Below are positions 12,386 through 61,854 of a stretch of DNA of 64,000 bases, one piece after another. A program made the translations under genes and the position numbers. A model generated the notes under the pieces. The model saw only the letters and a list, made by a program, of their open reading frames with translations, was not told the DNA's origin and searched no databases. Source of the DNA: Pseudodesulfovibrio sp. JC047 (GTDB lineage Bacteria > Desulfobacterota > Desulfovibrionia > Desulfovibrionales > Desulfovibrionaceae). Each line of letters starts with the position of its first letter. The first letter of the stretch is position 1. The stretch is from the NCBI RefSeq assembly GCF_010468615.1, contig NZ_WUEH01000006.1, forward strand, positions 62,001 to 126,000, written 5' to 3'.

Positions 12386-14197
12386 ATGGAAGTTGTTCAT
12401 TCCGATGAAAAAGAAAAAGGACCGTTGGTCGCCCTTGTCCTGGCACTTATCGTGCTGGGTGTGGGAAGTCTGTATCTGACATGGCGATCCATTGCGCAGC
12501 AGCGCAAGATTGTCGAGGATCACATGATAATGACCGGCAATTCGATTCTTCGCGGTGTGGACAACAATATCTTGCGCATTGCCAGGAATTTGCGCATTTC
12601 CCCACAGGCTCCGGAGCTTTTTCAGGCCATGTCGGAAGAATTGTTCGCCGAGTTGGTGAAATCCGAAGATATCGTCTTTATCACACTTTTTGGTGAGGAT
12701 GGCCGGTCTTTGGTCTCTTCGGGCGAAGAAGAGCCACCAGTGTTCAGCCTGCCCGACTCCGTGACGAGTGATATTGAACCAGGGCGGGCCTGGCATGTGG
12801 TCACGCAGATTGGTAAAAAGAGTGTGCTCATTTCCGGTGTCCGTACCCAGCCTGGAATTTCGACGTTGTGTGGACTGCATCCGCTGCCGGACGGGACGCG
12901 ACCTGGTGGGAACCACATGTCGCACCGTGGGCAAGGGATGATGCGTGGTTTGGGCAAGGATGGTAATGAACCACCGGCGTTTCTTGTGGTTGGTCTCAAT
13001 GCGGAAAAACATATGGCCCAGTTTCGACAATATCGTCGGGCCGCCACCTATCAGACCGGGTATGTGTTTCTCGCCGCCGTGGTGTTGTGGTCATTGGTCT
13101 TTGCCTATTTGCGTCGTCGTGGCGCGAGTCGCCAACTGGTTCGGTTGGAACGGTTTCAAAGCAAGTTGCTCGACAATATGCCTGATGGGCTGGTGACGTT
13201 GGCGGAAAGCGGAGAAGTACTGGCTGCCAATTATTCGGCCAAGAAATTGCTTGCGCCAAAAGGGACGGATGGTGCTCCTGAAATTATCGGGACCAATTGG
13301 CACGATTTTGATTTCGGTCTGATCCAAGGAGAGTCCGGGTTGGTCGTTCCCTACGAATGGGAACAATTCGATTATCAGGGACGACTGCTTGAAATTTTGA
13401 CATTGCCATTTCAGGAGGATGAAGCGGCCCCTGATTCTGATTTGGGACATCGGCTTGTGCTTATTCGTGACCGGACACAGCTTCGGTCATTGGAAGAAGA
13501 CTTGAACGAGGCCAAACGGTTGGCTGAAATCGGGTCGTTGGCCGCCGGTGTGGCCCATGAAGTCCGTAACCCGCTGAGTTCGTTGCGAGGATTTGCCCAG
13601 TTGTTCGCCACCAAGCTTAAAGGGCAGGCCCCGCTCGATCAGTATGCGGGGGCCATGGTGCAGGAGGCCGACCGATTGAATCGGGTGGTCACGGACCTAT
13701 TGTATCTGGCCCGACCCAGGGAGCTTGATCCTGTTGAAATCGATTTGTTGTCTTTGGGAGATTCCATCAAGCAGCTCATGCGGTTCGACTTTCAGGACAA
13801 GCTGACCACAGCGGAATTCGAATTTGGTCCGACAACGGTGTTTGCGGATCAGGATGCCCTCAGACAGATTTTGCTTAATCTGATAACAAACAGTCTTGAT
13901 GCCATTGAAGGATGTGCTGATTGCGACAAACCCGGCCATATCCTCCTGACATCGGTACAGGGTAAGGATGGGGTGTGGCTGATCGTGGCGGACAATGGAC
14001 CGGGCATGGACCCTGAATTGGAAGGGGATGTGTTCAAGCCGTTCATTACCGGCAAGAAGACGGGGACCGGCCTTGGATTGGCTATTGTCCAGAATTTTAT
14101 GCGTGCGCATCGAGGCGAGGTCGTTATTCATTCCGAACAGGGGCACGGTACTGAATTGAAACTTTTTTTCCCGAAAAATCCTGAAAGCGACAGCTAA
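12386..14197 (+). CDS. Membrane sensor histidine kinase, ZraS/NtrB-like
   Basis: A 603-residue two-pass sensor kinase. TM1 (about 13-33) and TM2 (about 225-245) flank a periplasmic domain of roughly 190 residues that contains a His/Met-rich patch (GNHMSHRGQGMM, near 173-184), a plausible metal site. A PAS-like segment follows (about 255-365), then the dimerisation/phospho-acceptor helix with H391 in GVAHEVRNPL and an HATPase domain with N-box, DNGPGMD and GTGLGLAI to the C-terminus. The family phosphorylates a sigma54 activator, here the product of the next gene. It starts 4 bp after the preceding stop; the ribosome site (AGGG) is weak. Confidence 0.92.
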   Translation: MEVVHSDEKEKGPLVALVLALIVLGVGSLYLTWRSIAQQRKIVEDHMIMTGNSILRGVDNNILRIARNLRISPQAPELFQAMSEELFAELVKSEDIVFITLFGEDGRSLVSSGEEEPPVFSLPDSVTSDIEPGRAWHVVTQIGKKSVLISGVRTQPGISTLCGLHPLPDGTRPGGNHMSHRGQGMMRGLGKDGNEPPAFLVVGLNAEKHMAQFRQYRRAATYQTGYVFLAAVVLWSLVFAYLRRRGASRQLVRLERFQSKLLDNMPDGLVTLAESGEVLAANYSAKKLLAPKGTDGAPEIIGTNWHDFDFGLIQGESGLVVPYEWEQFDYQGRLLEILTLPFQEDEAAPDSDLGHRLVLIRDRTQLRSLEEDLNEAKRLAEIGSLAAGVAHEVRNPLSSLRGFAQLFATKLKGQAPLDQYAGAMVQEADRLNRVVTDLLYLARPRELDPVEIDLLSLGDSIKQLMRFDFQDKLTTAEFEFGPTTVFADQDALRQILLNLITNSLDAIEGCADCDKPGHILLTSVQGKDGVWLIVADNGPGMDPELEGDVFKPFITGKKTGTGLGLAIVQNFMRAHRGEVVIHSEQGHGTELKLFFPKNPESDS

Positions 14198-14208
14198 GGA
14201 AGTGATAT

Positions 14209-15600
14209 ATGATGGAAGAACGCAGAGTCCTCATAGTGGACGATGAGCCGGGGCATCGAATGATGGTCCGGGCGGTTCTTGAAGATGATAACTGGACGGT
14301 CCTCGAAGCAGACTCCGGAGAACAGGCCTTGCAAGTGCTTGCCGAAGAAGCGGAGTCGCATGTTTATCCAGATGTGGCCATGGTGGACATGAAGATGCCA
14401 GGTATGAACGGGATGCAACTTCTCAAGGAATTGCAGGTCCGGCGACCGAGTATGCCGGTGGTGCTGCTCACGGCATTTGGGAGTGTGGGGAGTGCTGTTG
14501 ATGCCATGAAAAAAGGGGCTTTCGATTATTTGACCAAACCGGCAGATAACGATGAATTGACCGCAGTGGTTGGCAAGGCCTTTGGCTATCATAAATTGCT
14601 CAAGGAAAATGCTCGGCTCAAGGCCGAGGTCAGTGGTGAGGTGGATTTCATCGGAGCCAGCCCCGGCATCGAGCGGGTGCGCGATCTGATCGGACAAGCC
14701 GGTCCCACTGAAGCCACGGTCTTGATTCTCGGCCCGTCCGGCACTGGTAAGGAACTGGTCGCGGAAGGACTGCATCGGGCCAGCAATCGGGCTGATCGAC
14801 CGCTTATCAAGGTCAACTGCGCGGCATTGCCTGACGATTTGCTCGAATCAGAATTGTTCGGATACGAAAAAGGCGCATTCACCGGGGCGGTCAAGGACAA
14901 GCCCGGTCGATTCCAATTGGCGGACAGCGGGACGTTGTTTCTCGATGAAATAGGTGAGATGCCGGCCGCGCTTCAGGCAAAATTGCTTCGGGCTTTGCAG
15001 GAAAAGACCATCGAACCGTTGGGTTCGGTCAAGCCGATTCTTGTGGATACGCGCATCATCGCGGCGACCAATCGGAATTTGAAAAAGGAAGTGGATGCCG
15101 GGCGATTCCGGGAAGACTTGTACTATCGGCTGGCCGTGTTGGAAATCCGTATTCCTCCGTTGGAGGAACGCAAGGAAGACCTGCCGCTTTTGGTCAGTTT
15201 CTTGTTGCGTCGTCTCGGGAACAAGAACAATAAGATTATTCGGACGGTTACGCCCGCTTTTCTGGACGCGTTGTCTGGGTATGATTGGCCCGGCAATGTG
15301 CGTGAATTGGAAAATGTGTTGGAACGTGCGCTGATTTTGTCCCGAGCCGATGCCTTGGGACCGGACTTGTTGCCACCGCAGATCACTGGCGCACGCGAGG
15401 CCGCGATTCAGATCGATTTTGGTCCCCGGTTGGGATCATCCCCAGCCGCTCCAGCCAATCTTGAAGAAGCTGAAAAGCAGGCGATCATCCAGGCCTTGGA
15501 AGAAAATGGCAACCATCGTGAACGCACGGCAGAAGCCTTGGGAATCAGTCGGCGAACTTTGCAATACAAATTGAAAAAATACGGATTGACGCGACGTTAA
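14209..15600 (+). CDS. Sigma54-dependent response regulator, ZraR/NtrC-like
   Basis: A 463-residue NtrC-class activator. The receiver domain (1-120) has D11-D12 and the phosphorylated D60 (MVDMKMPG). The AAA+ domain (about 145-385) has Walker A GPSGTGKE at 175-182 and the sigma54-contacting loop GAFTGA at 222-227. The C-terminal Fis-type helix-turn-helix (about 435-460, ALGISRRTLQYKL) binds upstream palindromes. AAGGAAG precedes the start. It should activate the sigma54 promoter at 10817 and, by shared sites, the promoter at 27634. A good terminator follows, closing the four-gene unit. Confidence 0.94.
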   Translation: MMEERRVLIVDDEPGHRMMVRAVLEDDNWTVLEADSGEQALQVLAEEAESHVYPDVAMVDMKMPGMNGMQLLKELQVRRPSMPVVLLTAFGSVGSAVDAMKKGAFDYLTKPADNDELTAVVGKAFGYHKLLKENARLKAEVSGEVDFIGASPGIERVRDLIGQAGPTEATVLILGPSGTGKELVAEGLHRASNRADRPLIKVNCAALPDDLLESELFGYEKGAFTGAVKDKPGRFQLADSGTLFLDEIGEMPAALQAKLLRALQEKTIEPLGSVKPILVDTRIIAATNRNLKKEVDAGRFREDLYYRLAVLEIRIPPLEERKEDLPLLVSFLLRRLGNKNNKIIRTVTPAFLDALSGYDWPGNVRELENVLERALILSRADALGPDLLPPQITGAREAAIQIDFGPRLGSSPAAPANLEEAEKQAIIQALEENGNHRERTAEALGISRRTLQYKLKKYGLTRR

Positions 15601-59790: not shown

Positions 59791-59948
59791 TAAACTTGAA
59801 TGTTTTCAGTATGTTGTAATAATCATTGATTCGTTCTCGTATAATTGTGTGCAAATGCTGGATTGTCAATCTTGTCAGTAGTTTGCTGGCTACTGTATGG
59901 TAGACACAGGCTGTTTTTGGCACACTATAGAGCAATGATGAGGCGGTA

Positions 59949-61286
59949 ATGAGCATACTTTTTGGAAATTACATCCGAGGGCGACGTGAATCGTTACGAA
60001 AAGACAATCCCGAGTATTCCATCCGGCGCGTTGCCAAGCGGATAGGCATCCATCATTCATATTTGAGTAAGGTCGAGCGGGGGGAGCCTGCATCGTTTTC
60101 CGAGCGGACTGTGAAGGCGTTGGCAAAGGAACTGGAGGAGGATCCTGATTTGCTGATGGCCATGAACGGAAAGATTTCCGAAGAGATTCGCCGGGCGATT
60201 TTTGATGTCCCGGAATTGTTTCCCTGTTTTGTGCGTCATATCAAGTCGTCACCCCGGCCCGATGCCGGGCAGTGCGAGTTGGCTGTCTTGCGGAGTTTGC
60301 GAGATATGAGTGTGGTGCAGATGGATTCGTCCATGCGGATTGTCTGGGCCAAGACGGATGGAACGTGTTCCCGGTGCATGGAAGGGCGAAAGTGCTATGA
60401 ATTTCTGTATGATTCAGGAGAGCCATGTGCAGGGTGTCCAACGTTGGAAGCCTTGCAAAAAGGGGAATACGCAGGCGGAGAGATCCGTTTGCCCAATGGG
60501 GATGTGCGTTTGGTGGGCAGCACGCCACTTGGACGAGGTGCACAGGTAACTGGTGCGATCAATTTTGCGGTGGATGTATCCAGCGGGAAAAAAAGGGAAC
60601 ACGTTCGCCGGGAGGCTGAGGCGATGATGTTGCACGATATCCGGTCGCCGCTGGCTGGCCTGATCGGCATGATTCGGACCATGCAGTATGATACCAATTT
60701 GACCAGTATGCAGGTTGCCGACCTTGCGATGATGGAGCGGGCGGCAGAGGAATTGTTGACGCAGGTGTCCGGGGCTTTGGATATGCAACTGATTGAAAAC
60801 GGGCAGTTGCCGTACACACCGGGCACGGTGAACGTGGGGGAGCTGATTTGTTTGTTGGCAAAAGGGTTTACCGCTGGCGAACGGTTTCGGGGTGTTGACC
60901 TTTCCTTGTCTGTGAATGGTCGGCCCCTGGCGAGTGAGGATCGGGTCTGGGCCAGGGCGGATAGCGGTTTGACCATGCGGCTGTTGAGTAACCTGATGAC
61001 CAATGCCATGGAAGCGTCTGGTGCGGGGGATACCGTGCAGGTTCGGTTAGAGAATGGCTCGGGCGTCCGGGTCAAGGTTTCCAATCCGGCGGTGGTGCCG
61101 CAGGAGATGCGAAGCCGTTTTTTCGAGAAATCGGTGTCGTGGGGAAAAACCAATGGGTTCGGATTGGGGACCTATGGCGCGAAGCTCATGGCGGAATTCA
61201 TGAATGGGTCCATTGATTTCACGAGCAATGAAGCGGATGGCACAACCGTGACCGTGTCCCTGCCCGGGGCTGTGGCCAGAGCCTAA
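59949..61286 (+). CDS. XRE helix-turn-helix / PAS / histidine kinase-like fusion
   Basis: A 445-residue cytosolic protein with an unusual order. Residues 1-70 are a Cro/CI-type helix-turn-helix (RRVAKRIGIHHSYLSKVERGE). Residues about 105-215 form a PAS-like domain with cysteines C140, C143, C149, C160 and C163 (CxxC, C, CxxC). Residues about 220-285 are a HisKA-like helix with H229 in MMLHDIRSPL, and 295-440 an HATPase fold with N348/N352 (LLSNLMTNAMEA) and a GFGLGTYGAKLM G2 box. The G1 box is SNPAVV instead of DxGxG, so ATP binding may be impaired. The ribosome site is GAGGCGG. Its stop overlaps that of the convergent small gene by two to three bases. No dedicated response regulator is near. 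Confidence 0.85.
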   Translation: MSILFGNYIRGRRESLRKDNPEYSIRRVAKRIGIHHSYLSKVERGEPASFSERTVKALAKELEEDPDLLMAMNGKISEEIRRAIFDVPELFPCFVRHIKSSPRPDAGQCELAVLRSLRDMSVVQMDSSMRIVWAKTDGTCSRCMEGRKCYEFLYDSGEPCAGCPTLEALQKGEYAGGEIRLPNGDVRLVGSTPLGRGAQVTGAINFAVDVSSGKKREHVRREAEAMMLHDIRSPLAGLIGMIRTMQYDTNLTSMQVADLAMMERAAEELLTQVSGALDMQLIENGQLPYTPGTVNVGELICLLAKGFTAGERFRGVDLSLSVNGRPLASEDRVWARADSGLTMRLLSNLMTNAMEASGAGDTVQVRLENGSGVRVKVSNPAVVPQEMRSRFFEKSVSWGKTNGFGLGTYGAKLMAEFMNGSIDFTSNEADGTTVTVSLPGAVARA

Positions 61287-61552
61287 TCCACCGGGTGTAT
61301 CCGGACTTTTCGGCTGCGGGGGAATTCTCGTTTCAGCAGTGTCTTGAGCTGCTTTTTTATCTGAGATATATCGGTTTGAACCGTTGTATGGTAAAATCCT
61401 GATTCCGTGACTGTGCAGGTCGTGTCCGTATCTTTGACAATGCGCACGAATCGGTCTCGTTTGTAGGTCAACAGGACAAGGCCCTGCCCGGGAGTGAGCT
61501 TTTTCAGCCGGGTGAGGGTGTGCGGAATGACATTTGACAGGTCGAGCATCAT
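61283..61552 (-). CDS. Small basic protein, tandem paralogue 2
   Basis: An 89-residue, Lys/Arg-rich soluble protein. The C-terminal segment KKQLKTLLKREFPRSRKVRI is nearly identical to the matching part of the upstream neighbour, and HALTRLKKL and LTYKRDRFVRI also align, so the pair arose by duplication. No known domain is recognised. Its ATG overlaps the neighbour's stop by four bases. It converges on and overlaps the XRE-kinase stop. Confidence 0.8.
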   Translation of the reverse strand: MMLDLSNVIPHTLTRLKKLTPGQGLVLLTYKRDRFVRIVKDTDTTCTVTESGFYHTTVQTDISQIKKQLKTLLKREFPRSRKVRIHPVD

Positions 61553-61854
61553 ATCTTTTTCCGGGCGATGTGGGTGTCGGTCTCAGCGGGACCAAGGTCG
61601 TAAAGTCGGATTTTTGTCGATCTGGGAAATTCTCGTTTCAGTAATGTCTTCAGCAACTTCTTCATGCGAGTGGACGGAATGAGAAATCGTTCTTCGTGAA
61701 AGCCTTTTTCTTTGACCTCAAATTGGTCGTCGACGAGACGCTTGATGACAACGGATCTGTTTCGTTTGTAGGTCCGCAGGTCGATGGCGTGCCCTTCGGG
61801 CAGTTTTTTGAGGGTGCGCAATACGGTTTGCAGGGCTGTGGCCTTGTCGATCAT
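61549..61854 (-). CDS. Small basic protein, tandem paralogue 1
   Basis: A 101-residue, Lys/Arg-rich soluble protein. LRTLKKLPEGHAIDLRTYKRNR and KKLLKTLLKREFPRSTKIRL align with the downstream paralogue, while the C-terminal tail (GPAETDTHIARKKI) is unique. Ribosome site is weak. It is divergent from rlmD over 68 bp. Possible roles are nucleic-acid or partner binding near the kinase; not known. Confidence 0.8.
   Translation of the reverse strand: MIDKATALQTVLRTLKKLPEGHAIDLRTYKRNRSVVIKRLVDDQFEVKEKGFHEERFLIPSTRMKKLLKTLLKREFPRSTKIRLYDLGPAETDTHIARKKI

Follow-up and report, generated by a model that had tools for sequence, protein, structure and literature searches.

The window analysed here, a 64,000-nucleotide stretch of DNA from Pseudodesulfovibrio sp. 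JC047, carries near its end a gene whose product combines an XRE-type DNA-binding head, a PAS-like region and a histidine-kinase core (Table 1). Pfam assigns HTH_3 to residues 20–69 (34.8 bits against a cut-off of 23), which places the protein among the XRE-domain regulators, and also recovers HisKA (32.0 bits, cut-off 26.9) and HATPase_c (54.6 bits, cut-off 26.4). With these two domains, the phospho-acceptor His, the N-box Asn and the G2 glycines all present, the protein also has the sequence features of a HisKA-type kinase, the G1 box excepted. A first-pass annotation had proposed that an XRE domain, a cysteine-bearing PAS domain and a HisKA/HATPase module occur in one chain, and this is confirmed by the reading frame, by Pfam and by a Cys motif shared with other proteins (see below). 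No transmembrane stretch is evident by eye.

The neighbouring genes are pyruvate-kinase-like (judged by eye), HD-domain, CBS, DUF3108 and RNA m5U methyltransferase-like genes. Because the next genes downstream are on the opposite strand, the fusion gene looks monocistronic. Two adjacent small genes at 61283–61854 on the minus strand encode paralogues of 89 and 101 aa that are 44% identical over their tblastn match and to which no Pfam family could be assigned; such genes occur beside the methyltransferase gene in two copies in 28 of 34 genomes and in one copy in the other 6. No plasmid match was found for positions 1–25000 of the window.

Table 1. Features of the XRE–PAS-like–kinase gene and its promoter (positions in the window).
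Feature	Position	Strand	Basis
Predicted operator GGCTAC-TGTATG-GTAGAC, 6-bp arms, 6-bp spacer	59888..59905	+	conservation, pattern scans
Sigma-70-like promoter TTGTCA, 18-bp spacer, TATGGT within the predicted operator	59872..59901	+	
XRE-PAS-HisKA-HATPase gene, 445 aa, ATG start	59949..61286	+	ORF, Pfam, AlphaFold
XRE head, aa 1–101	59949..60251	+	Pfam HTH_3; free-standing protein at the same site in 9 other genomes
PAS-like region, aa 117–212, with C140/C143/C149/C160/C163	60297..60584	+	motif in L094 PAS_4; low-confidence fold
HisKA dimerisation/phospho-acceptor domain, aa 220–285, H229 in LHDIRSPL	60606..60803	+	Pfam, alignment
HATPase_c, aa 342–439; N352, N379 (G1), K400, G403/G405/G407	60972..61265	+	Pfam, alignment, PDB matches
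G1 codon of N379; canonical DxGxG has Asp	61083..61085	+	class alignments

The AlphaFold model of the protein, for which a 29-row alignment (A4) served as input, has a mean pLDDT of 81 and a pTM of 0.56. Within the HATPase domain the ten-residue pLDDT means are 93–97, falling to 78–83 in the part that forms the ATP lid. The best fold matches found by VIA-align, whose list for the whole-protein model contains kinase cores only, have Z scores of about 20: a bacteriophytochrome (9eut; Z 21.1, rmsd 2.7 over 219 residues), ThkA with ADP (3a0t; Z 20.8, rmsd 3.1 over 148 residues) and DivL (4q20; Z 20.7, rmsd 5.6 over 220 residues). In these comparisons, the modelled HATPase domain resembles nucleotide-bound kinases.

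Pfam identifies no PAS domain in the protein at E<=1. We nevertheless use the PAS label for the region ahead of the kinase core because its three-Cys motif also occurs at residue 207 of another XRE-headed protein, L094, within a Pfam PAS_4 domain (178–273), and because AlphaFold folds the region, with low confidence (ten-residue pLDDT means of 50–74), into a mixed alpha/beta structure. The window protein has all of the cysteines C140-x2-C143, C149 and C160-x2-C163; C143 occurs only there, and C149, C160 and C163 are common to all four fusion or split copies of the gene (see below). The CxxC...CxxC arrangement that had been pointed out earlier is thus present in the letters, but the idea behind it is weakened by the restriction of C143 to the window protein. 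Three-Cys motifs like C149/C160/C163 are also found in kinase-bearing and kinase-free XRE proteins and in a small number of further signalling proteins, and the motif would fit metal, heme or redox sensing by the PAS-like region. PAS-specific relatives in the genus come only from the four genomes with fusion or split copies (E<=1e-6).

At the G1 position the kinase core reads S378-N379-P-A-V-V in place of DxGxG, as the first-pass annotation had recognized. That annotation took the loss of the box as a sign that the protein may not act as a kinase, a conclusion that its relatives do not bear out. The closest kinases carry an xN...VP stretch where DxGxG is expected. Asn occupies G1 in 28/28 related kinases and the phospho-His is present in 27/28 (each counted once in the alignment), while H229, N352, N379, the lid Lys K400, G403, G405 and G407 (window numbering) are invariant in 23/23 kinases of alignment A1, 17 of which are encoded at loci without a match to the XRE head. 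The G1 loss is hence family-wide, a variant of the class, and a peculiarity of the window protein is ruled out; because Asn is class-wide, the variant alone is no sign of a dead kinase. Alignment A1 omits L047 (stop codon in range), L033, L041, L003 and L050 (displayed motifs identical to those of L049), and L009 of the window's own genome, which also has Asn at G1, is poorly aligned and was left uncounted. L047 (from G035) belongs to the Asn-G1 class and has Arg at the phospho-His position, so single members of the class can be dead.

The relatives were taken from a genome similarity search; a single-sequence pattern scan of the genome contigs returned two remote kinases only. At E<=1e-45, the Asn-G1 class was detected in 3 of 39 genomes of the phylum, the window's own included. 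No solved structure with an Asn-type G1 was found among 5 structure alignments of the 29 listed. On sequence grounds, the kinase body of the window protein most likely binds ATP, with Asn379 standing in for Asp, and phosphorylates its own H229.

Using a receiver profile built for this analysis, we detected no receiver, in frame or in the short fetched flanks of about 1.5 kb, at any of 25 loci of the Asn-G1 class (L002, L003, L022–L034, L036, L038, L040, L041, L044 and L046–L050), whereas in the window's genome 12 of 14 loci for DxGxG kinases have one (L004–L008, L010, L011 and L013–L019, some of which overlap; L012 was dropped because it had no alignment). Asn-G1 therefore marks a class of orphan kinases. 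Relatives with an intact G1 box and a cognate regulator nearby, named beforehand as the finding that would tell against the earlier model, did not appear among these class loci. Within the 64-kb window the profile identified a single receiver ORF (14209–15600), about 44 kb from the gene and adjoining an ORF at 12386–14197 with a weak kinase-profile match, and for this reason the earlier statement that no partner regulator is adjacent holds.

At E<=1e-10 the XRE head is matched in 20 of the 36 genomes of the genus; at E<=1e-12 it is matched in 51 of the 288 genomes of the family and in 65 of the 348 of the class. The same genomic site was compared in 34 genus genomes, the other 2 of the 36 yielding no anchor gene, and contains a fusion in 3, a frameshifted fusion in 1, an XRE-only gene in 9 and no such gene in 17, with 4 sites rearranged. 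The fusion is rare, being intact in only 3 of the 36 genomes of the genus and frameshifted in one more, and seems to have been lost in close relatives. In the frameshifted copy (L121, from G021) the fusion is broken after the head into two overlapping frames, and because the kinase frame retains the residues that follow the head we regard it as a frameshifted fusion, or one broken by an assembly error, and not as a precursor. A midpoint-rooted tree built from four neighbouring proteins has one starred group that unites the 3 fusions and the split copy with 13 empty genomes; the XRE-only genomes fall outside it. Since a tree rooted at its midpoint cannot separate gain from loss, we inferred the order of events by parsimony: the XRE-only state would be ancestral, the PAS-kinase part a later addition, and several losses would have followed. 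Of the 36 genomes, 13 have the XRE site and 7 have a gene of the XRE-receiver type elsewhere, with no overlap between the two sets; this would occur by chance at 0.03, uncorrected for kinship, and we draw no conclusion from it.

The promoter of the window gene agrees with the sigma-70 consensus at 9 of 12 positions, and the region has 6 promoter-like sites against 1.4 in shuffles. All 13 carriers of the head at this site share the upstream sequence CAATCTTGTC...TTG.TGGCTACTGTATrGTAG.C, with TTGTCA in most of them, a spacing of 18 bp and TATrGT, and with the -10 box inside the 18-bp palindrome. Of the 42 columns of this promoter block, 29 are invariant in all 13 genomes; of the 78 columns that flank it, only 1 is. 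The palindromic 18-mer occurs at 0–1 mismatch once per genome in 13/13 carriers (with one substitution in the window copy), and at <=2 mismatches in 0 of the 23 other genus genomes. There are 12 remaining matches, each of which has 3 mismatches, whereas the reversed pattern used as a control gives 71, and a scan with GGCTACNNNNNNGTAGMC gave 22 further rows against 39 control matches; a regulon beyond the gene's own promoter is rejected because further matches are fewer than in the controls. One genome without the head (G016) has a site with the window's 14-bp core and 3 mismatches over the 18-mer. Neither the 18-mer scan nor the GGCTACNNNNNNGTAGMC scan identified a second operator target in the window's genome, and with its own promoter as the only clear site the head has no obvious downstream output.

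In the 288 family genomes, matches to the 16-mer GGCTACTNTANNGTAG hardly exceed those of its reversed control in number (17 versus 14), and only their location is special. Thirteen are the genus XRE promoters, one is in G066, one is in G040 and two are elsewhere (one in G177 and a second match in G013); 15 of the 17 lie at genes or probable operons of the XRE family, 14 of them directly at XRE-head promoters. The matches to the reversed control fall in 13 genomes, only two of which have the head at this site. Upstream of the XRE-HK gene of G066, a genome from another genus, the arrangement is TTGTCA-10 nt-GGCTAC...GTAGCC, with the same spacing as in the window. Palindrome tests on single sequences are weak, since the 13 genus sites pair 5 of 6 arm positions, which is the chance level in shuffles, and perfect-arm palindromes arise in about 2–9% of shuffles. 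The match in G040 (L093:270–285) is a perfect-arm palindrome upstream of a gene for a Cache-HAMP chemoreceptor, and an XRE-PAS gene comes directly after that gene. These two genes may share an operon; the locus is interrupted by contig ends in the related genomes G041 and G042.

Different 6-6-6 palindromes are found upstream of other XRE sub-families. In the XRE-receiver group, the best palindrome lies at -73 to -79 in 9/9 members (including L087, which is without a receiver) and is perfect in 4. Heads of genus g39, which are attached to PAS arrays, have GTGCAC-N6-GTGCAC with <=1 mismatch in 11 of 14 genomes, where it occurs only at the XRE gene; among 6 other genomes scanned, there is a single, unrelated site in G000 and another in G069. 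No perfect palindrome was found in the 120 bp upstream of the head genes of g46 (12 rows), g12 (8), g4 (3) and g17 (2), of six 118-aa stand-alone heads, or of L094 and L142. Most g46 rows share the GIHHSYLS recognition-helix motif with the window protein, yet the operator is absent; it is likewise absent from L094, an XRE-PAS-HK protein with a recognition helix very similar to that of the window protein.

The modules that follow the head were classified in 70 XRE-headed rows with profiles built for this analysis, and at 10 loci Pfam gives the same picture in its main lines. Sixteen rows, G021 among them, have XRE alone; in the other classes the head is followed by PAS arrays without a kinase, by PAS and a receiver, by a degenerate kinase core and then a receiver, by HK, by PAS and HK, or by other modules. 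A complete kinase core stands behind the head in three lineages, that of the window, G066 (L091, without PAS) and G210 (L094). L094 groups with kinase-free heads (starred in the XRE tree). This tree, which has few columns and many open forks, does not fix the position of L091, which may share its origin with the window lineage. The mid-region of the XRE-receiver group is a decayed HisKA/HATPase (profile comparison, probability 96.9, E 1.5e-10), for which reason these sister proteins are likely to contain a pseudokinase. Eight aligned members (L083–L086, L088, L089, L098 and L101) have no conserved His, N-box or glycine boxes in the kinase core, and the receiver that follows is intact, with its acidic pair, Asp and Lys kept.

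In genus g46, a chemoreceptor gene and a CheW gene come after the XRE-PAS gene at two loci examined with Pfam (L130 and L134). These neighbours hint that kinase-free relatives control chemotaxis genes. ORF choice in the downstream operons of other genera is unreliable owing to high GC content; the MCP and CheW neighbours are those confirmed by Pfam.

We hypothesize that the window protein is an autogenously controlled DNA-binding sensor in which a PAS-kinase has been grafted onto an XRE head, and we consider this the probable reading. Based on the position and conservation of the predicted 18-bp palindrome, the head would dimerize on this site over its own -10 box and repress its own gene. The PAS-like region and kinase body would have been added behind an older stand-alone XRE protein, a direction that we inferred from the distribution at the site. 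The PAS-kinase body, acting through its DHp coiled-coil dimer, may then set whether the head binds, and the phosphate could be kept as a switch in cis or passed to an unlinked receiver. Part of the regulator model in the first-pass annotation survives in this scheme: the DNA-binding head on a kinase fold, the candidate operator in its own promoter, and relatives with no kinase or a degenerate one all speak for it, but the step from G1 loss to a non-kinase does not stand.

Alternatively, the kinase might act on an unlinked response regulator, with the XRE head only setting the amount of kinase by autorepression. We regard this as rather unlikely. It would be compatible with the catalytic residues kept in the class, with an operator whose only close match is at the gene's own promoter and with the apparently monocistronic gene, but the head occurs alone at the same promoter site in nine genomes that have no kinase there, and elsewhere on kinase-free PAS arrays, and therefore has a role independent of the kinase; moreover, the partner receiver could not be named. 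Also unlikely, and given somewhat less credence, is the model of the first-pass annotation, a kinase-dead repressor gated by a ligand or by redox state in which the kinase fold is a mere switch. The XRE-receiver proteins with their degenerate HisKA/HATPase and intact receiver, the Arg of L047 and the precedent of DivL for a kinase core acting as a sensor (PMC4211667) lend it some support, whereas the lineage of the window protein keeps H229, N352, K400 and the G2 glycines, and its Asn is class-wide. That the kinase part is a decaying passenger and only the head matters is very improbable: the whole gene is missing in G008, G009 and an 11-genome clade and is frameshifted in G021, but the other two intact fusions keep the catalytic residues although their full-length identity to the window protein is only 60% and 58%.

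More tentatively, heads of this kind may be "self-only" across the order, each with one clear operator at its own promoter and with PAS arrays, receivers, dead kinases or complete orphan kinases of an Asn-G1 class plugged in behind. If these readings are true, the window protein would be a sensor kinase monitoring and restraining itself at its own promoter, with transcriptional feedback placed within the kinase chain. One-component and two-component signalling are usually held apart, and here one head would span both. The head alone, with a sensor, with a receiver and with a kinase forms a natural series for studying the control of a DNA-binding domain by a kinase core in the same chain. Judging from its sequences, the Asn-G1 orphan class may in addition provide a case of a changed nucleotide pocket.

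Among the literature matches listed, none of the titles and abstract openings of open-access papers reports an XRE head on a histidine kinase. Cro/C1-type (XRE) regulators can carry a sensor domain, as in the XRE-cupin type, and these share with the window protein an N-terminal XRE head and a C-terminal sensor module; the predicted palindromic operator in its own promoter would also liken it to them, whereas its sensor module is a complete histidine-kinase core. The hybrid two-component systems of Bacteroides are membrane proteins with a receiver and an AraC-type output. They too combine a kinase and a DNA-binding domain in one chain, but the window protein has an XRE domain, no receiver and, by eye, no membrane segment. 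NreB senses oxygen through a PAS domain with a four-Cys Fe–S site (CxxC plus CxxC) and likewise has cysteines ahead of its kinase core; in contrast, the four fusion or split copies have no more than three cysteines in common, and an NreB-type site is therefore not conserved among them.

HK853, ThkA and the bacteriophytochrome kinases have in common with the window protein the Pfam domains, a fold match with Z of about 20, and the H, N and G2 boxes; unlike them, it has Asn in G1, a DNA-binding head and no nearby receiver. In DivL of Caulobacter, a kinase core has been repurposed as a sensor and Tyr550 stands at the phospho-acceptor position (PMC4211667). The resemblance lies in the possible use of the kinase fold as a sensory switch, in the PAS input and in the fold match. 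The window protein differs in keeping the phospho-acceptor His, by which it is not a DivL-type pseudokinase, and in its DNA-binding head, none being mentioned for DivL in the part of PMC4211667 drawn on here. The parts of the window protein are thus of known kinds, and their combination with a conserved candidate operator of its own is new.
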